Source of the DNA: Microcaldota archaeon
GTDB lineage: Archaea > Micrarchaeota > Micrarchaeia > Anstonellales > Bilamarchaeaceae
DNA length: 46,400 nt
Assembly (NCBI GenBank): GCA_023129075.1
Contig: JAGMCT010000020.1
Location: forward strand, 1 to 46,400
Direction of reading: 5' to 3'
Positions 381 through 46,400 of this stretch are shown piece after piece; the first letter of the stretch is position 1; each line of letters opens with the position of its first letter. Both the position numbers and the translations under genes were made by a program. A model generated the notes under the pieces. That model did no database searches. It worked only from the letters and a program-made list of their open reading frames with translations, and was not told the origin of the DNA.

Positions 381-1706
381 ATGGATGATAATTTGATTGT
401 GGCGTTGTACCATGAAGATTCTGGAGTAAGGGAAGCTGCGGGAATGAAGGCTGTTGAAGAATATGCTGCAGATGGATATTATATAGGGCTTATTCAAATG
501 GCTGGAAACGAGGGATTACCAGAGGGTGTAAGGATAACTGCGGGAATGAAGGGTGTTGAAAACTGTGCTGTGAATAAGTCATATGGACAACTTATTAGAA
601 TAGCCGAATATCTTAAGGAATCACCAGAGAAAATAAGGGAAGCCGCAGGAATGAAGGCTATTGAAAAATGTGCTGCGGGTGGATTATATGGAGGACTTAT
701 TGAAATATCTGGAAACAAAGAATTGTCAGAGAGTGTAAGGGAAACTGCAGGAATGAAGGTTATTGAGAAATATACTGCGGATGGATTATATGGAGGACTT
801 ATTGGAATTGGTGGAAACAAAGAATTACCAGAGAGTGTAAGAGAAGCTGCCAGAACTAATCTTGAAGCTGTGGGAATGAAGGCTGTTGAAAAATATGATG
901 TAAATGAATCATATGGACAACTTATTGAAATGGCTGGAAACGAGGGATTACCAGAGAGTGTAAGAGAAGCTGCCAGAACTAATCTTGAAGCTGCTGGAAT
1001 GAAAGTTGTTGAAAAATGTGCTGCAGATGGATTATACAAAGAACTTATTGAAATATCTGGAAACAAAGAATTGTCAGATAGTGTAAGGGAAACTGCAGGA
1101 ATGAAGGCTATTGAGAAATATACTGCGGATGGATCATATGGAAGACTTATTGGAATTGGTGGAAACAAAGAATTACCAGAGAGTGTAAGAGAAGCTGCCA
1201 GAACTAATCTTGAAGCTGTGGGAATGAAGGCTGTTGAAAAATATGATGTAAATGAATCATATAACGGTCTTATTGGAATGGCTAAAGATGAAGAATTACC
1301 AGGGAGTGTAAGGGAAGCTGCGGGAATGAAGGCTATTGAGAAATATACTGCGGATGGATCATATGAAAGACTTATTGGAATGGCTGAAAACAAGGGATTA
1401 CCAGAAAAGGTAAGAGAAGCTGCCAAGGCCAATATTGAAGCTGCGAAAATGAAAGTTGTTGAAAAATGTGTTGTGAATAAGTCATATGGACAACTTATTG
1501 AAATGGCTGGAAACAAGGAATTGTCCGAGAGTATAAAAATAGCCGCTGAAGAAAAAATAAAAAATGAGGCTAATAGACTTGCGCAAAAGATGGGACTGAC
1601 CAAAAATCCGCTTGCAGGAGACGGGCTTACGGTAGAGCCATCTAAGATAATGAGGGGGATCTCTTGGCTCAGAGGGAAAACACCAAAAAACAAGATAAAG
1701 GCATGA
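381..1706 (+). CDS. HEAT-like tandem-repeat protein of unknown function
   Basis: This 441-aa protein consists almost entirely of about ten helical repeats. The unit is 34 residues, of the form 'VREAAGMKAIEKYTADGLYGG' followed by 'LIGIGGNKELPES'. A longer 41-residue form carries a seven-residue insertion around 'RTNLEA'. The pattern of two helices and the 'VREAA' start resemble HEAT or PBS-lyase repeats, which usually bind proteins. The last 50 residues are not repeated, are basic ('LRGKTPKNKIKA'), and could be a separate contact region. At DNA level 796-914 and 1144-1262 are identical by eye, so the repeat array expanded recently. There is no signal peptide. The start is supported by a GGTGAT site five bases upstream. 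A specific function cannot be given. Confidence 0.8.
   Translation: MDDNLIVALYHEDSGVREAAGMKAVEEYAADGYYIGLIQMAGNEGLPEGVRITAGMKGVENCAVNKSYGQLIRIAEYLKESPEKIREAAGMKAIEKCAAGGLYGGLIEISGNKELSESVRETAGMKVIEKYTADGLYGGLIGIGGNKELPESVREAARTNLEAVGMKAVEKYDVNESYGQLIEMAGNEGLPESVREAARTNLEAAGMKVVEKCAADGLYKELIEISGNKELSDSVRETAGMKAIEKYTADGSYGRLIGIGGNKELPESVREAARTNLEAVGMKAVEKYDVNESYNGLIGMAKDEELPGSVREAAGMKAIEKYTADGSYERLIGMAENKGLPEKVREAAKANIEAAKMKVVEKCVVNKSYGQLIEMAGNKELSESIKIAAEEKIKNEANRLAQKMGLTKNPLAGDGLTVEPSKIMRGISWLRGKTPKNKIKA
796..1262 (+). repeat. 119-bp perfect direct repeat inside the repeat-protein gene
   Basis: Bases 796-914 recur at 1144-1262 with no difference that I can see, at a distance of 348 bases. 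This corresponds to a 116-residue super-unit made of two 41-residue repeats and one 34-residue repeat. Neighbouring units are similar but diverged. Confidence 0.85.
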
Positions 1707-6715: not shown

Positions 6716-9400
6716 TTAAGTTGCAGAATCATTTTCCCCAGTATTCTCAATATTCTCTGGCTTCTTAGTATTCTCAGTGTTCTCTATAGTCTTTGGCTTC
6801 TTAGTGTTCTCAGTGTTCTCTATAGTCTTTGGCTTCTTAGTGTTCTCAGTGTTCTCTGGCTTCTCAGTGTTCTCTGGCTTCTCAGTGTTCTCTGGCTTCT
6901 CAGTGTTCTCTGGCTTCTCAGTGTTCTCTGGCTTCTCAGTGTTCTCTGGCTTCTCGGTGTTCTCTGGCTTCTTGGTGTTCTCTGGCTTCTCTTCACTCTC
7001 CTCAATCTCCTCCTTCTCTTCCTTTGGAACCCTTGTAAAAGAGGAAACCTTCTCCTTTTCCTTAAGACGGATTATGCGCACCCCTTTTGTATTCCTTCCT
7101 ATTACTGAAATATTGGAAACATTAATGCGGATAAGCTGAGCCCTAGAGCTTACAACGATTATCTGGTCGTCTTCATCAACAGCTCTTATGTCTACTGCAT
7201 CGCCGTTCCTTTTTCCGGTATTTATGTTTATTATCCCTGAACCGCCTCTGTTCTGCAGTCTGTATTCCTCTATATTAGTGCGTTTTCCATAGCCGTATTC
7301 TGTGATTGTAAGAAGGGCAGGTCCGGCCCTGTTGGATGCAGCGCCAATTACCTTATCTTCCTTTGCAAGCCTTATTCCGCGGACTCCTGCAGCTGTTCTT
7401 CCCATGTTCCTTACATCAGATTCCCTGAAGCGGATGGATTTTCCTTTTGCAGTTGCAAGTATTATCTCTTCGCCGGGAACAATATGCTTTACCTCAACCA
7501 GAGTATCCCCTTCATGCAATGTAAGGGCTATTATTCCTCCTCTTCTTGGATGGCTGAAGGCAGAAAGAGGGGTTTTCTTTACTGTTCCTTTTTCAGTAGC
7601 CATGAAAAGAGAACCTTCCTCAAAATTCTTTACAACAATCCTTGAGGTTACCTTGGCATCTTCAAGTTCAAGCAGGTTTACTATGGGTTTTCCTTTGGAG
7701 TATCTTCCTGCCTCAGGAATAAGATATGTTTTAAGCCAGTGCACCTTTCCTCTATCCGTAAAGAAAAGAATATATTTGTGATTGGTTGTGATAAGAACGT
7801 CCTCAATAAAATCATCCTCAACGGTTTCTGCACTTCTCACCCCTATTCCGCCTCTCTTCTGGGTTCTGTATTGGTCAAGAGGAACCCTTTTCACGTATCC
7901 TTTATTGGAGAGAGTAACCACCACTTCTTCATCAGGGATAAGAGCTTCTATATCCATGTCTTCTTCGCCCTCTATAATTTCTGTTTTTCTTTTATCCCCG
8001 TATCTAGCTTTTATCTCAGAGGTCTCTTCCTTTATTATGCTAAGAACAATGGATTCGTCCGAAAGAACCTTTTCCAGGTATATTATCCTTTCCTCAAGCT
8101 CCCTGTGTTCTTTGAGAAGAGATTCAACCTCAAGGCTGGTTAATTTCTGCAGCTTCATATCAAGGATTGCGGCTGCCTGCTTTTCTGTAAATGAATGCAC
8201 CTTGGCAAGTGCAAGCTTTGCATCAGCAGGACTTTTTGCAGACTTTATCATCTGGATGATTGGGTCTATGTTGGATAGTGCTTTTTTCAGGCCTTCAAGA
8301 ATATGAATCCTGTCCTTTGATTTGTTGAGCTCATAGGTGCTTCTTCTTCTTATAATCTCTTTTCTGAAATCAATGAATTCAGAAAGCATATCTTTGAGCG
8401 GAAGAACCTTGGGAACACCATTTACAAGTGCAAGGTTTATTATTCCAAAGCTTACCTCAAGAGAAGTATGCTTCAATAATTGGTTTTTCACAACCTCAGG
8501 ATTTTCCCCTCTCTTAAGGTCTATATCTATGTGCATACCTTTTCTGTCCGAGCGGTCTTGTATCCCTTTTATTCCTTCTATCTTTTTTGACTTTACTCCG
8601 TCAACAACCTGCCTTATGAGGGAGGTTTTGTTAACCTGGTAAGGAATTTCAGTAATTATTATCTTATTGTCTTCAGTGATGGTGATTCTTCCCCTAACTC
8701 TTATTATGCCTCTTCCTGTGGTGTATGCTAAGAGGATTCCTTTCCTTCCTACGATGAGGCCTCCTGTGGGGAAATCGGGTCCGCTTACTATCTGCAGTAA
8801 TTTTTCCTCATCTGCGCCGTCTATGAGAGCAAGGATTGCATCTGAAATCTCAATAAGGTTGTGCGGAGGAATATTAGTTGACATACCAACAGCAATGCCT
8901 GAAGAACCATTTATCAGAAGATTGGGGCTTGTGGATGGAAGAACTGAGGGTTCTTTTAATGTGCCGTCAAAATTTGGAAGGAAATCAACCGTATCCTCTT
9001 TTATATTTTTTAGCATGTCCTCTGCTAAACGGGTCATACGGCATTCGGTATAACGCATGGCGGCGGCAGAGTCCCCATCCACACTTCCAAAATTTCCATG
9101 CCCGTCAACAAGCAGGTATCTTAAACTAAAATCCTGGGCCATCCTTACAAGAGAATCATAGATTGCAGTATCTCCATGCGGATGATATTTACCCAAACAC
9201 TCGCCGACGATTCTTGCACTCTTTTTATGCGGGTGGTTGTGTGTATTTCCAAGCTCCTGCATCGCGTAAAGAATCCTTCTGTGAACTGGTTTAAGGCCGT
9301 CCCTTACATCAGGCAGGGCCCTGCTTACAATAACACTCATTGCATAATCCATATAGGACCTTTTCATATCCTCTTCAATAGGAATATCTACAATTGTCAT
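6716..9400 (-). CDS. gyrA: DNA gyrase subunit A with a low-complexity C-terminal tail
   Basis: GyrA cuts and rejoins DNA and, with GyrB, introduces negative supercoils. The 894-aa protein starts '[20 protein letters not shown]'. It carries the catalytic tyrosine 117 in '[11 protein letters not shown]', the breakage-reunion domain (about 1-480), and a six-bladed wrapping domain. The GyrA box is present as 'QKRGGIG', so supercoiling activity is expected. From about residue 795 the protein continues as a glutamate-rich tail with about eight repeats of KPENTE, then 12-residue units with '[10 protein letters not shown]'. The tail is not part of ordinary GyrA. The ATG lies four bases after the gyrB stop, with the ribosome binding site overlapping that stop, so the genes are translated in tandem. 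Confidence 0.97.
6757..6990 (-). repeat. Minisatellite encoding the GyrA tail (18-bp and 36-bp units)
   Basis: About eight nearly identical 18-bp units (TTCTCTGGCTTCTCAGTG on the plus strand) run through about 6847-6990. They are followed by two 36-bp units around 6773-6844. Unit sizes are multiples of three, so changes in copy number keep the gyrA frame. Confidence 0.9.
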
Positions 9401-9404
9401 AATA

Positions 9405-11291
9405 TCACACGTCCAGGTTCATAACCTCTTTTGCATGAGCAGAGATGAATTCCCTTCGTGGCTCAACAGCATCACCCATAAGAACGCTGAAAAGTTTGTC
9501 TGCTTTCATTGCATCTTCAATAGTAACCCTTTTGAGGGTGCGGGTTTCAGGATTCATGGTGGTTTCCCATAACTGCTCAGGGTTCATCTCTCCAAGACCT
9601 TTGTATCTTTGGATGCTGGCGCTCTCCCCCATCTCTTCAATACAAACTGCAAGCTCCTGGTCGTTGAAAGCATATTTCTCGGTTTTCCCTTTCTTTACCT
9701 TGTAAAGAGGAGGCTGGGCTATGTAAACATATCCATCTTCAATTACTTTATTGAAATGGCGGTAAAGAAGTGTAAGGAGAAGGGTTCGTATATGGCTCCC
9801 GTCAACATCAGCATCCGTCATTATTACTATCTTATGATACCTTAATTTAGAAAGGTTAAACTCCTCTCCGAACCCTGTGCCGAATGCAAGAATCATGGAC
9901 TTTATTTCTTCATTTGCAAGAAGCTTTGTGAGGGGTGCCTTCTCAACATTCAGAATTTTTCCTCTGAGCGGAAGGATTGCCTGTGTATTCCTGTCTCTGC
10001 CCTGCTTGGCTGAACCTCCTGCAGAATCTCCTTCTACGATAAAAATCTCTGCCTTTGTTGGGTCGTTTTCTATACAATCGGCAAGCTTTCCCGGAAGAAC
10101 AGAGGATTCAAAAACACTCTTCCTTCTTATAAGATCTCTTGCCTTCTGCGCAGCCTCCCTTGCCTTCATGGCTCTTGCGATTTTTGAGATTACCAACTGG
10201 GCTTCCTTTGGATGCTCTTCAAGGTAGCTCTTAAAAGAGGAGTAAACGAATTTTTCAACAGCGCTCTTGACTTCCGGGTTTCCAAGCTTTGTTTTTGTCT
10301 GGCCCTCAAATTGGGGGGAAGGAATCTTTACGCTTATAAGAGCAGTGAGGCCTTCCTGTATATCATCCTGCACAAACCTTCTGTCCTTTTCCTTCATCAG
10401 ATTGTTGGACTTTGCATATTCATTTATAGAACGGAGAAGGGCAGTCCTGAAACCGGATACGTGTGTTCCTCCTTCTGTTGTTTTTATGTTATTTACAAAT
10501 GAATAAAGTGAGGTGGAATAGTAATCAGTATATTGAACTCCATATTCCATTATGACATCTCCATCTACTTTATCTGCAACTATTGGTATGTGAAAGGGGG
10601 TTCTGCTCTTATTGATGAAAAGGATAAATTCGGAAAGACCTCCTTCTGAAAAGAATTCCTCCCTCTTTTCCATCTTTTCGTCATCAAGAATGATGCGCAG
10701 TCCCTTATTCAAAAAAGCGATTTCCCTGAAACGTTCTGCCAGGGAATTGAAATCAAATTCTATGGACGGGAAAATGGAAAGGTCAGGCTTGAAGCGCACG
10801 ATTGTACCTGTGTAATTACTATCCCCTTTGACCTCAACAGGGGTTGTTGATTTGCCTTTTTCATATTTCTGCACATGTATTTTTCCATCCCTGTGCACCT
10901 CAATCTCCATTCGTTCACTTAAGGCATTTACAACGGACAGTCCTACACCGTGCAGACCACCGCTTACTTTATAGGCTTTTTTCTCAAACTTACCTCCTGC
11001 ATGAAGCATTGTTGTAACAATTTCAAGGGCTGATTTTTTGTACTTTGGATGGATGCCTACTGGAATTCCTCTTCCATCATCCCTCATGAAAATGGAGTTG
11101 TCTGTTTTTAGTATAACCTCAATATTTTTGCAGTAGCCTGCCATTGCTTCATCTATACTATTATCCATTATCTCATAAATCATGTGATGGAGACCATGTT
11201 TTCCCGTGTCTCCTATGTACATTGCAGGCCTTTTCCTTACTCCTTCTAGACCTTCAAGAACTTTAATAGTACTTGCTCCGTAATCTTCCAT
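9405..11291 (-). CDS. gyrB: DNA gyrase subunit B
   Basis: GyrB supplies the ATPase and the TOPRIM metal site of gyrase. The 628-aa protein starts '[20 protein letters not shown]'. It shows the GHKL ATP-binding motifs '[11 protein letters not shown]', 'DDGRGIPV' and '[15 protein letters not shown]'. The transducer domain follows, and the TOPRIM motifs '[15 protein letters not shown]' and '[15 protein letters not shown]' are intact. The C-terminal '[19 protein letters not shown]' is conserved. It has the short form typical of bacterial type II enzymes without insertions. A GTG at 11300 is in frame but is part of the AGGTG binding site, so ATG 11291 is the start. It follows the 770-aa gene by ten bases and precedes gyrA by four. 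Confidence 0.97.
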
Positions 11292-11300
11292 ATAATACAC

Positions 11301-13613
11301 CTATATTAAACCTAAAGATTTGCTCCAGGTTTCCATTACTTCCTTTGCCTTGCTCTTTTCAACGATAAGAACACTGAATGTTGTGTTGGCTCTTGAAAAT
11401 AAGAGAATGGTATTTTTTCCTACAGCAACACTCCTGAGAATAGATTCTCTAAAACTCTTTTCAAACGCACTGGTTAGGGATATAAGCTTGAGCGAGAGAA
11501 CTGTGACAACTGACTTGCTTCCTCTTTCAGTAAAAATATACGCCGGCTTTCCATTCTTTATGATGATTCCGCTCTTTATTATGCCCTTCTTCCTAAAAGA
11601 GCCCATAAGCTTCTCTGCCATATGTTCTGCAGAGACCTGCTTCCTTTTCAGTTCATCATTTTCAATAAGATAACCTTCTCCTGCGTGCTCTCCAACGAAT
11701 CTTGTGACTGCCCATCTTCTCCATTGGGGGGGTATTGAAACGATTGAGGCAATGAGTATTGAATCGTTCTGCCCCATAAGTCCGCTTATGTTCTTTTCCC
11801 AAAGTTCCCATTTGCTTTCTACAATGTTCTCCTTTTCATTTATGGATTTAAGGGCTTCTGCAATTCTTTCATAATTGAATTTTATCAATTCAAATGCAAC
11901 ATCCTGTTTTTCAGCAACTTCTATAAGATGGTTAATCCTATGCAGCGGAATGGAATTCACAACATCATATTCTGATTTGACATCCAGTTTTTGGGCTGTT
12001 GCTCTTTCAACCTCTTTCTTGAGTTGAGAAAGAAGTTCCTTTGTTTTCTTGTAATTCGCCCTATTGGATTGTGTGGTCGCTTCTGAAGCAGAATAATAGC
12101 CCTGGCCAAGCATTATGGCTTTGAGATGATCCTCTACAACAATGTAAATGGTGTAAATGCCCAACACGATGAAAACTGTTGAAAGAGAACCAGCGATATC
12201 AGTGCCCAAGTATTTCGGGATATCACTTAGTACAAGTTCGGTTATAAGAATTGTTTTTGAAAAGAAAAGACCAAGCGGAATCCCTATCAAAAGGAGTATT
12301 CCTCCGGTTACCAGATATTTATCCTTATCTGCAAGAGGGGGCAGGAAGTATTCAAGAAGTGAGTGCATTACATTCTTATCTGCAATAAAAGTTGTAGCGC
12401 CTATATATGTGTACTGTAAAAGATATATTGTAAGGAAAAAAGCAACAACCCAGAACGAAAGCACAAGCGCTAAGGAAGGATAATAACCAAGGAATATATA
12501 GAACAGATCAAAAAGGAATTTGGAGAGGTTCATTGCAAACATAACAACTATATTATCCTTTAGGCTCACAAAATAACCAAACAACTGAATTGTCCTTTCT
12601 GAAACTCCGGGAAGTTTCCATTTTGAAAAGACCTCTTCATCAAACGGAGTGGAAGAAAGGAAGCTGTACTTTAAAATTGTTTTTTCAAAAACCCCTACTC
12701 TTATGCCCCTCCATTCCACGGAAGGAGGATTTTCTTCCACCAGTTCACCATTGCCTTCAATAACAATACTAAACTGGTCTATTTCAAGGTTTCTTGAAGG
12801 ATTTTCCCTTATATAAATCTCTGTATATTCTGTTTCATCTCCGCCGGTAAGTAAAAAATAACTAGAACATTTATATTGTTGGTTTGTATAATTAATTTCT
12901 TCTACAACCATATCCAGCATATTGTATATGTTTTCCATCTTGTAATTCGGAGAGGAACAAACCCCGTAAAGACGACTGTTGAAAAGTGAATTGGTTTTTA
13001 TTGAATAAATTTTTAGAAGAATCTGGTCTGCAGTCTTAACAAACTCACTGAGTTTTATCTCGCTCGCACCCTCAAGTTCATCAAGCTTGGAATCCAGTTC
13101 AAGGATTAATTCATCAATCTTGTCAGAATCTGTCTTGTATAAAAACAAAGATGAACCAAAGGTCTGCTTCCCATATTCTGCAGCATCCCTGCACTTCTGG
13201 GAGGTGCAGGCTTCAACACAGCTGTCCGCATCAAGGCATTTTATCATATTGCCCTCAAAACCAAGAGACTGAAGGCACTGTTTATCAAATTTTTCTTTTG
13301 GGTTTTTAAAATCGCTCAAATATGAGCGAAGAATCTGCACATCCTGCGCAGTAATATTTGTATAATTAAACGTCTGGAGAGAACCGCCAACCTCATGAAC
13401 CGTAATTATTCTTCTTAAATTTATATTAAGTTCGCTGTCTATTACAATAGGTTTGAATTCTATGATTCTTGCTTCTGGAATTCCATTTGCATCAATGTCT
13501 ATATCCTGTGTTGTGATTGGGATTTCTGAGCCTGTTAAAGTGATGGCTCTTTCCTCAACACAACCAAACATGAAAAGAGTTAAGAATAATAGTAAAATAA
13601 TGGGTTTTTTCAT
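11301..13613 (-). CDS. Lipoprotein-like multi-pass membrane protein, first gene of the gyrase operon
   Basis: The 770-aa protein begins with a lipobox-type signal ('MKKPIILLLFLTLFMFGC', Cys18). An extracellular part of about 330 residues contains four to six cysteines in 'KCLDADSCVEACTSQKC'. Four to five hydrophobic segments follow between about 345 and 500 (for example 'LALVLSFWVVAFFLTIYLL'). A cytosolic part of about 260 residues has a coiled coil near 520-560 and a winged-helix-like stretch near 650-700. Its last 70 residues resemble a roadblock/profilin-type fold by eye. I do not recognise a family. It has its own TATA box upstream and ends ten bases before gyrB. A membrane-linked regulatory role is only inference. 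Confidence 0.75.
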   Translation of the reverse strand: MKKPIILLLFLTLFMFGCVEERAITLTGSEIPITTQDIDIDANGIPEARIIEFKPIVIDSELNINLRRIITVHEVGGSLQTFNYTNITAQDVQILRSYLSDFKNPKEKFDKQCLQSLGFEGNMIKCLDADSCVEACTSQKCRDAAEYGKQTFGSSLFLYKTDSDKIDELILELDSKLDELEGASEIKLSEFVKTADQILLKIYSIKTNSLFNSRLYGVCSSPNYKMENIYNMLDMVVEEINYTNQQYKCSSYFLLTGGDETEYTEIYIRENPSRNLEIDQFSIVIEGNGELVEENPPSVEWRGIRVGVFEKTILKYSFLSSTPFDEEVFSKWKLPGVSERTIQLFGYFVSLKDNIVVMFAMNLSKFLFDLFYIFLGYYPSLALVLSFWVVAFFLTIYLLQYTYIGATTFIADKNVMHSLLEYFLPPLADKDKYLVTGGILLLIGIPLGLFFSKTILITELVLSDIPKYLGTDIAGSLSTVFIVLGIYTIYIVVEDHLKAIMLGQGYYSASEATTQSNRANYKKTKELLSQLKKEVERATAQKLDVKSEYDVVNSIPLHRINHLIEVAEKQDVAFELIKFNYERIAEALKSINEKENIVESKWELWEKNISGLMGQNDSILIASIVSIPPQWRRWAVTRFVGEHAGEGYLIENDELKRKQVSAEHMAEKLMGSFRKKGIIKSGIIIKNGKPAYIFTERGSKSVVTVLSLKLISLTSAFEKSFRESILRSVAVGKNTILLFSRANTTFSVLIVEKSKAKEVMETWSKSLGLI

Positions 13614-33922: not shown

Positions 33923-34183
33923 TGCGGGCTCCCTGACTTGCACACCAACCCCGACCAGTATCTCTTATCCTCTGCTCCACTTCCTGATCCTCCAAGCATG
34001 GCGAGATAAATGCGTAGGGCTGCTCCTTCCGGTCTGACCCGTTTTGCACTTTCCACCATCGTAGAGGGGAAAGCTTCGGCGCTTTGGATAAAAGGCTGAA
34101 CGAGACTGAAATACTCCTCAGGTATTCGGCCCACCAAAGGGGATTTGTGGTAAAGGGACCCCTAGCCCCTGCCTAGCCCGCAT
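33923..34183 (-). ncRNA. SRP RNA (7S RNA)
   Basis: The gap between DP2 and the next gene is GC-rich on the minus strand. It contains the S-domain core 'GGGTCAGACC', GGAA tetraloop and 'GGAGCAGCCC' (about 34017-34042), the most conserved part of SRP RNA that binds SRP54. The two ends pair (TGCGGGCT with AGCCCGCA), forming the closing helix. At about 260 bases it is shorter than the usual archaeal 300. A TATA-like TTTTTTAAT is found about 25 bases upstream (34202-34210). The RNA targets ribosomes making exported proteins to the membrane. Exact ends are estimates. Confidence 0.92.
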
Positions 34184-40012: not shown

Positions 40013-40117
40013 CGGGCCTGAGGGGATTTCCTCATCTGTGGAAGAACCAAAGATGGTTCGGACCCCCGACACCCGGATTAAGAGTCCGGTGCTCTAACCA
40101 AACTGAGCTACAGGCCC
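40013..40117 (-). tRNA. tRNA-Lys (anticodon CTT) with a 30-base insertion in the T loop
   Basis: On the minus strand the acceptor GGGCCTG pairs with CAGGCCC, discriminator G. The D arm (GCTC...GAGC) and the anticodon arm (CCGGA-CTCTTAA-TCCGG) are normal, with CTT at positions 34-36. The T stem GGGGG pairs with CCCCT, but the loop between holds about 37 bases instead of seven. Removing 30 bases gives the loop TCCGAAT and a 75-base tRNA. This looks like a non-canonical archaeal tRNA intron near position 59. The base at position 55 is C instead of the nearly universal T. I could not draw a clear bulge-helix-bulge motif. Confidence 0.85.
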
Positions 40118-45205: not shown

Positions 45206-45967
45206 TTACTTCTTTTTTGTGGCTTTCTTTGAGGTTTTCTTTGTGGCTTTCTTTGCAACTGTTTTCTTAGCTGTCTTTTTCTTTGCTGGTTTTTTAGTTG
45301 ATTTTACTGCCTTTTTGGCTGTTGCTTTCTTTGCAGCTTTCTTTGGGGTTTTTTTGGTTGGTTTTACTGCCTTTTTGGCTGTTGCTTTCTTTGGTGGTTT
45401 TCTTTTCTTTGAAAAATAAGCATTAAGTTCAGAGATATCACTCAGAAGATTATCACAACCCCTAATAAGCATATTTTTGACAGAAATTTGATGGAAACCT
45501 TCTGCTATAAAAGAAAGTGTACCGTCATCTTCTATCCCATATGAAACAAGACCTGCCTGGAATTTTGCATGGGTCCTTCCAATACCGAGTTTCAGTTTTC
45601 CTTCTACACGAACAACCTGTCCTTCATCAAGGGAAAAAATAGGGATATCCTGAACAGCCACAGTCATCTTGGAATCTGATTTTAGGTCCTGGGACATTAT
45701 TCTTCCTGGACCGGACATATCAAATTTGAAAATAGGCATCTTTGAAGGAAGTTTTTTCGGCATTTTTATGGGAATCAAACCTATTCTATGAGCAAGATAT
45801 TCATCAAAAATAGAAGATGTATTTTCATATACAACTATATTATCTATTGCAAATAAAGGGACATGCATCATTGAATACCTTCTCACTGCATTTGCAAGAG
45901 GCACGTCCAGATCTTTCACAGAAAAGGAAAGAACATTTCCATTCTCCTTAAAATTTGAAATCTGCAT
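45206..45967 (-). CDS. rpo3: RNA polymerase subunit Rpo3 (D) with a lysine/alanine-rich C-terminal tail
   Basis: Rpo3 is the alpha/Rpb3-like assembly subunit of archaeal RNA polymerase. The 253-aa protein has the N-terminal dimerisation block 'VPLANAVRRYSMMHVPLFAI', 'DEYLAHRIGLIPIKMP', and the insert domain. Only one cysteine is seen (171), so there is no Fe-S domain. From about residue 187 the protein continues with 67 residues made almost only of Lys, Ala, Thr and Pro ('KKATAKKAVKPTKKTPKKAA' type), similar to histone H1 tails. The start ATG lies after a GGAGGATGTGAT site that overlaps the uS11 stop; a GTG at 45973 is in frame but less likely. Confidence 0.93.
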   Translation of the reverse strand: MQISNFKENGNVLSFSVKDLDVPLANAVRRYSMMHVPLFAIDNIVVYENTSSIFDEYLAHRIGLIPIKMPKKLPSKMPIFKFDMSGPGRIMSQDLKSDSKMTVAVQDIPIFSLDEGQVVRVEGKLKLGIGRTHAKFQAGLVSYGIEDDGTLSFIAEGFHQISVKNMLIRGCDNLLSDISELNAYFSKKRKPPKKATAKKAVKPTKKTPKKAAKKATAKKAVKSTKKPAKKKTAKKTVAKKATKKTSKKATKKK

Positions 45968-45969
45968 AA

Positions 45970-46400
45970 TCACATCCTCCTTCCTCTTCTGCCTCCTTTC
46001 CTTTTCATTGAATCAGTGGGCAGTGGAGTAACATCATCAATCCTTCCGACCCTTAATCTCATCCTTGCAACGGTCCTTACTACTGCCTGGGCTCCAGAGC
46101 CAGGGGTTTTTGCACCGTTTCCTCCAGGTGCTCTTATTTTTATGTGAACGCGGTCAATTCCTTTTTCCTTTAAGTCATTAACAATTCTTGCTGCTGCCTG
46201 CATTGCTGCATAAGGCTTTCCCTCTTCCCTGGAAGATTTTACCATCATGCCTCCGCTGGCCCATGCAAGTGTTTCAGCACCGCTTATATCAGTTGCAGTT
46301 ATTATTGTATCATTTTTTGAGGAATAAACGTGGAGTATTGCAAGCTTTCCTTTCTTTGGTTTCTTCTTAACCTCCTCTGTTGGTTTTTCTTCTTTGGGTG
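45970..46400 (-). CDS. rps11: Ribosomal protein uS11, N terminus cut by the window edge
   Basis: The C-terminal part has the uS11 core '[20 protein letters not shown]', '[20 protein letters not shown]' and the basic end '[13 protein letters not shown]'. Upstream the frame stays open to the window edge and reads '[20 protein letters not shown]' and '[15 protein letters not shown]', the usual N-terminal core. Before that it shows a lysine-rich extension ('[10 protein letters not shown]'). uS11 binds 16S rRNA in the platform of the small subunit. The gene is followed by rpo3, the classic archaeal order. It is also the binding partner of Fap7-type kinases. Confidence 0.95.

Follow-up and report, generated by a model that had tools for sequence, protein, structure and literature searches.

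The window analysed here is a stretch of 46,400 nucleotides from an archaeon of the Micrarchaeota, whose genome (G000) is a 0.99 Mb draft of 25 contigs with 93% completeness. At 40117-40013 on the minus strand, the window contains a gene for tRNA-Lys(CUU) whose T loop is 30 bases too long. ARAGORN and the Rfam model RF00005 both recognized a tRNA-Lys(CTT) on the minus strand, with the 3' end wrongly put inside the insert (40117-40043). Reading by hand revealed that the acceptor stem (GGGCCUG:CAGGCCC) and the T stem (GGGGG:CCCCU) are both complete. The gene can be divided into exon 1 (positions 1-59, 40057-40117, minus strand; ARAGORN, RF00005 and orthologue identity), a putative 30-nt intron at position 59/60 (40027-40056, minus strand) and exon 2 (positions 60-72 and the discriminator G73, 40013-40026, minus strand), which pairs with the 5' half of the T stem and the 5' strand of the acceptor stem and is identical to the orthologues. 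Several other loci of the window were unusual as well. A protein resembling RNA polymerase subunit D (45206-45973, minus strand) carries a long Lys/Ala/Thr repeat tail similar to that of histone H1, a Gyrase A-like protein in this archaeon (6716-9400, minus strand) ends in a tail of ENTEKP-type repeats, and a further protein (381-1706, plus strand) is built from repeated helical units of the type AAGMKAVEKYAADGLY. For the SRP RNA (33924-34181, minus strand), the highest score came from the model of the bacterial large SRP, despite the archaeal genome.

Orthologues of the tRNA-Lys(CUU) gene were found in sister genera. Two of them (G007 and G073) share the sequence GGGCCTGTAGCTCAGCTTGGTTAGAGCACCGGACTCTTAATCCGGGTGTCGGGGGTTCGAATCCCCTCAGGCCCG and have no insert: where they read GGGGGTTCGAATCCCCTCAGGCCC, the window gene reads GGGGGTCCGAA, followed by 30 nt and then TCCCCTCAGGCCC. 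The insert is missing from the orthologues of four more genomes as well (G017, G009, G016 and G024). Gene positions 1-61 are 97% identical to the intronless orthologues, and removal of the insert restores a canonical tRNA that differs from the G007/G073 orthologue at 2 of 75 bases, one C>T exchange in the D loop and T55>C. The preliminary description had reported complete acceptor and T stems with 30 additional T-loop bases, and both the direct reading and the orthologues bear this out. As judged from sequence comparison, the identity of the gene as tRNA-Lys(CUU) is settled by its orthologues. Since these are intronless and nearly identical to the spliced exons, the insert represents a gain.

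If the insert is an intron, it should fit the motif that the archaeal splicing endonuclease cuts, namely two 3-nt bulges that flank a 4-bp helix (PMC6379350). Such a bulge-helix-bulge could be drawn in register, with the T stem as outer helix h. The 5' strand of the central helix H is formed by U54-C55-C56-G57 (40059-40062, minus strand) and its 3' strand by the intron bases AGGA (40029-40032, minus strand), giving three Watson-Crick pairs (U-A, C-G, C-G) with positions 54-56 and one G.A apposition at position 57. The inner helix h' consists of CAUCU (40051-40055, minus strand) and AGAUG (40033-40037, minus strand), five pairs flush with bulge 1 and H, and closes a loop of 13 nt. Bulge 1 (A58-A59|C, 40056-40058, minus strand) would hold the 5' splice site after A59 and bulge 2 (AA|U60, 40026-40028, minus strand) the 3' splice site before U60. 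Both predicted cuts thus fall after the second base of the bulge (AA|C and AA|U), as in the enzyme-RNA structure from ARMAN-2, where cleavage separates base two of the bulge from base three (PMC12397907), and the remaining T loop reads UCCGAAU. Since the fourth pair of H is a G.A mismatch, the motif is slightly relaxed.

When intron sequences were shuffled with their composition kept, only 76 of 100,000 reached at least three pairs in H together with at least five pairs in a flush h'. Thus, the claim that no clear bulge-helix-bulge can be drawn for this insertion does not hold. The same mature loop had been proposed before and stands, but the cut had been left ambiguous near positions 58-60; because both cuts sit at the canonical place in the bulge-helix-bulge, the intron position is fixed at 59/60. 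A second gene of the genome, a tRNA-Ala(CGC) (contig C3:11000-11600, tRNA at about 11268-11323 with the insert adjoining, minus strand), also carries a T-loop insert (TTCAAT|ACATTTT...GGGAAAA|T). By hand it fits the same register, and the gene is too disrupted for ARAGORN. The genome gave no match for a number of tRNAs that should be there (Tyr, His, Thr-GGU and Glu-UUC among them); these may be heavily interrupted, split or located in missing sequence.

The main computational objection to the predicted splicing fold is an alternative fold of lower energy. In the minimum-energy structure of the free RNA the T arm is paired differently, 7.5 kcal/mol below the bulge-helix-bulge fold. This structure contains the two hairpins previously drawn for the insertion, which therefore exist in the computed free-RNA fold but do not represent the splicing fold. 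Since the free-RNA minimum differs from the latter, either the enzyme or the tertiary structure of the tRNA would have to favour splicing.

Further evidence for the register came from related genomes. We collected 42 tRNA-Lys genes with an interrupted T loop from the order and the phylum, 40 of which entered the alignment A1. With the three-helix model in one fixed register, 85.2% of the cells were paired (n=40), versus 71.1% in shuffles and 62.9% for the best slide, and 104 cells had changed on both sides (41.5 in shuffles). The covariation score was 0.423 compared to 0.177 in shuffles, and none of 500 shuffles attained it. Helix H, columns 6-9 with 21-24 of A1, contributes an exon base that changes together with the intron: position 55 and its intron partner were U-A in 23 cases, C-G in 10, U-G in 3 and other in 4, while position 57 and its partner were A-U in 21, G-C in 7, G-U in 3 and other in 9 (n=40 each). 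In a partner-swap test on the 26 introns left after deduplication, the outcome was 20 of 20,000 when every pair of H was counted and 102 of 20,000 at position 55, which also passed. Exceptions exist, as G191 has an A opposite C55 and the introns of G001, G032 and G039 fit the register poorly. AAU was the commonest bulge 2 among the aligned introns. The predicted splice register of the window intron is hence strongly backed by covariation in 40 Lys T-loop introns. With the intron, the Micrarchaeota would gain a family of T-loop splice sites that has good support and in which a base of the exon T loop covaries with the intron.

These data also bear on the idea that the locus is a decaying pseudogene hit by a chance insertion, with AAG codons read by tRNA-Lys(UUU). 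One tRNA-Lys(TTT) gene is indeed present in the genome and its product could wobble; moreover, a formerly universal base is altered and ARAGORN fails to model the true 3' end. However, all stems are paired, and the conservation of the exons noted above argues against decay. In addition, the insert forms an in-register splice motif, and this register recurs in most of the 39 other Lys T-loop introns. AAG is also well used, with 476 of the 1,212 Lys codons in the larger open reading frames of the window. A second, intact tRNA-Lys(CTT) gene, named earlier, together with absence of this transcript, as a finding that would refute the proposal, was looked for in the 93%-complete genome and not found. 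We therefore regard a pseudogene as very improbable.

The genome encodes a matching enzyme. A reading frame of 383 amino acids (contig C6, 43962) gave a full-length match to the epsilon2 EndA of ARMAN-2 (4FZ2/9W2K, E=8e-118) and matches both PF01974 and PF02778. Residues Y160/K161 of the specific loop (GTYK), which broadens the substrate range, and the RNA-contacting and catalytic residues K228, Y236, H251, S252, R275, K282 and W384 are identical in the alignment with the ARMAN-2 protein, for which the roles of such residues, including the Tyr-Lys of the specific loop, have been described (PMC12397907). Broad-specificity endonucleases tolerate relaxed and displaced motifs (PMC6379350). A second EndA-like protein of about 154-164 amino acids (L105, contig C16:23889-24119, minus strand) shows a weak PF01974 match and is possibly a non-catalytic partner. 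Many relatives carry similar small second EndA copies.

Based on the register, the covariation and the gene for an epsilon2 endonuclease, the insert would be a tRNA intron of the usual archaeal type, only located at a non-canonical position. By sequence it is of a known kind, the archaeal bulge-helix-bulge tRNA introns. Of more interest than the intron is the base at position 55, a real C (40061, minus strand) where the sister genera have U. U55, or pseudouridine 55, is close to universal and, among the modified sites of tRNA, has been described as the one conserved most universally (PMC7912444).

The preliminary description had read a C at this position, and it is genuinely encoded. A pattern for tRNA-Lys(CUU) with C55 matched 66 of the 301 genomes of the phylum, one of them by chance (G012) and one uncertain (G295), leaving about 65; the corresponding U55 pattern matched 140. 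A true C55 match and a U55 match never occurred in the same genome. C55 genes were concentrated in two families, f20 and f21 (for example L132-L158 and L190-L225). Nor is C55 restricted to tRNA-Lys(CUU). The possibility that only one tRNA of the window genome carries it was rejected, as its intronless tRNA-Thr(UGU) (L004, contig C5:7566-7637) has the T loop TCCAATT and hence a second C55. Sequences resembling tRNA-Lys(UUU) with C55 were present in 26 genomes, some of them multi-copy: G237, G238 and G239 have two or three copies each. In two such Lys(UUU)-like sequences (L269 and L273) the 5' part is not tRNA-like, and these may be fragments or disrupted copies. Among the sampled loci of non-Lys tRNAs in relatives we counted 48 U55, no C55 and one G55, a comparison in which a Lys-versus-other Fisher test is biased by the frequent choice of Lys loci for having C55. 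The G55 belongs to a tRNA-Cys with the loop TGCGATT (L182, G270:C21:957-1073).

An error of assembly or sequencing in this metagenome-assembled genome might in principle produce a single C55. The assembly is a draft of 25 contigs, and a collection scan that may omit records of the own species showed no second strain. However, C55 occurs in the same isoacceptor of about 64 other genomes and again in tRNA-Thr(UGU) here. Furthermore, its intron partner is G in this gene, and G is also the partner in 10 of the 11 remaining introns with C55. An artefact is thus the least probable of the explanations that we considered, and we treat C55 as encoded.

Does the intron explain the C? C55 is the third strong pair of H, alongside the G.A mismatch at position 57. 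In the window pre-tRNA the computed bulge-helix-bulge fold was 2.9 kcal/mol better with C55 than with U55, and the predicted probability of the H pair was about 0.2 versus 0.001-0.002. Locally, C55 is therefore likely to stabilize the modelled splicing fold of this gene. Within family f1, the window genome is the only one with C55 in tRNA-Lys(CUU), which places both the intron gain and the T55C exchange on one branch. As a general cause of C55, the intron was rejected: 12 C55 genes were interrupted and 52 were not, compared to 26 and 113 among U55 genes (12/64 versus 26/139; odds ratio 1.00, P=1.0). Such introns do not need C55 either, as 26 tRNA-Lys(CUU) introns have U55. Given this and the lack of association, C55 in general cannot be due to stabilization of the helix.

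A C at position 55 might also be edited to U, and then converted to pseudouridine, before or after splicing. Such editing would resemble the known archaeal C-to-U editing at position 8, where CDAT8 converts C8 to U8 in tRNAs of Methanopyrus kandleri (PMC9957541), and would reconcile the gene with the near universality of U55 (PMC7912444). The archaeal enzymes that make pseudouridine 55 are Pus10 and Cbf5 (PMC9957541). Pus10 is intact in the window genome (a frame of 358 amino acids with 44-46% identity to relatives), so that an edited U55 could be modified. Loss of Pus10 was consequently rejected as an explanation of C55 here; the in-frame stops of the Pus10 match fall outside the open reading frame. 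Pus10 was also found in G007, G020 and G087 (families f1 and f13, counting the window genome). The Pus10 model TIGR01213 detected no homologue in any of 18 searched f20 and f21 genomes (90-97% complete), C55 and U55 genomes alike, where divergence beyond the model is possible.

Editing, raised as a possibility in the preliminary description, received no positive evidence. The sole PF00383 match of the window genome is an AAA and dCMP-deaminase-like protein with no THUMP match; a THUMP-containing cytidine deaminase was thus not found, a search that could miss a divergent deaminase. Several C55 genomes (G208, G175 and G163) had no PF00383 match at all. Moreover, C55 is simply encoded in the roughly 65 genomes, and no case of editing at position 55 was found in the open-access literature searched. 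Like the CDAT8-edited tRNAs of M. kandleri, the tRNAs described here encode a conserved U as C. In contrast to that system, they concern position 55, few tRNAs only and a genome in which no THUMP deaminase was found. We consider editing improbable, if somewhat less so than decay of the gene, and favour retention of C55.

In our preferred explanation, which we hold to be very probable, the gene is a functional single-copy tRNA-Lys(CUU) with a gained intron at 59/60, epsilon2-type splicing and a C55 that takes part in the central helix and is most likely kept. After the split from the sampled sister genera, the T loop would have gained a 30-nt bulge-helix-bulge intron between A59 and U60. C55 would pair with a G of the intron bases AGGA, and the three Watson-Crick pairs would help to hold the splicing fold. 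The ARMAN-type epsilon2 endonuclease would cut both 3-nt bulges after the second base, and joining of the exons would yield the T loop UCCGAAU. C55 most likely stays C after splicing, giving a tRNA that would lack pseudouridine 55 and make a changed docking contact with G18 in the D loop. We infer splicing, exon joining, C55 retention and the effect on the elbow from these combined data.

For the phylum as a whole, we lean slightly towards the view that U55 is not obligatory in Micrarchaeota. About 65 species would encode and keep C55 in their tRNA-Lys(CUU), and the same would hold for some tRNA-Lys(UUU) and, here, for tRNA-Thr(UGU), resulting in working elongators with a G18-C55 elbow in place of pseudouridine 55, partly together with the apparent absence of Pus10 (18/18 genomes of f20 and f21). 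Recurrent C55 would then represent a natural exception to the most universally conserved modified tRNA site (PMC7912444). Since it is present in many species, the exception is directly testable by tRNA sequencing and functional assays. A recurrent encoded C55, or its covariation with an intron, was not found described in the open-access literature searched, which was covered in part.

Compared to known systems, the gene shares with archaeal non-canonical T-loop introns (PMC6379350) the T-loop insert, the 3-nt bulges around a short helix, the intact exons and a broad-specificity endonuclease. It differs in that one of its four central pairs is G.A and that the exon base C55 pairs with the intron. 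The epsilon2 EndA of ARMAN-2 (Candidatus Micrarchaeum acidiphilum) is the same type of enzyme and has the specific-loop Tyr-Lys and the contact residues in common with the enzyme of the window genome, whose sister lineages are mostly labelled Candidatus Micrarchaeota. The ARMAN-2 structure paper (PMC12397907) does not mention the T loop, and the window genome has the second, 164-amino-acid EndA-like protein. A natural tRNA with C55 is also known in the tRNA-Pyl of Desulfitobacterium hafniense (PMC7609411). However, that tRNA has G13-C55 and lacks U8, whereas the tRNA-Lys(CUU) described here keeps GG at positions 18-19 and is an ordinary elongator.
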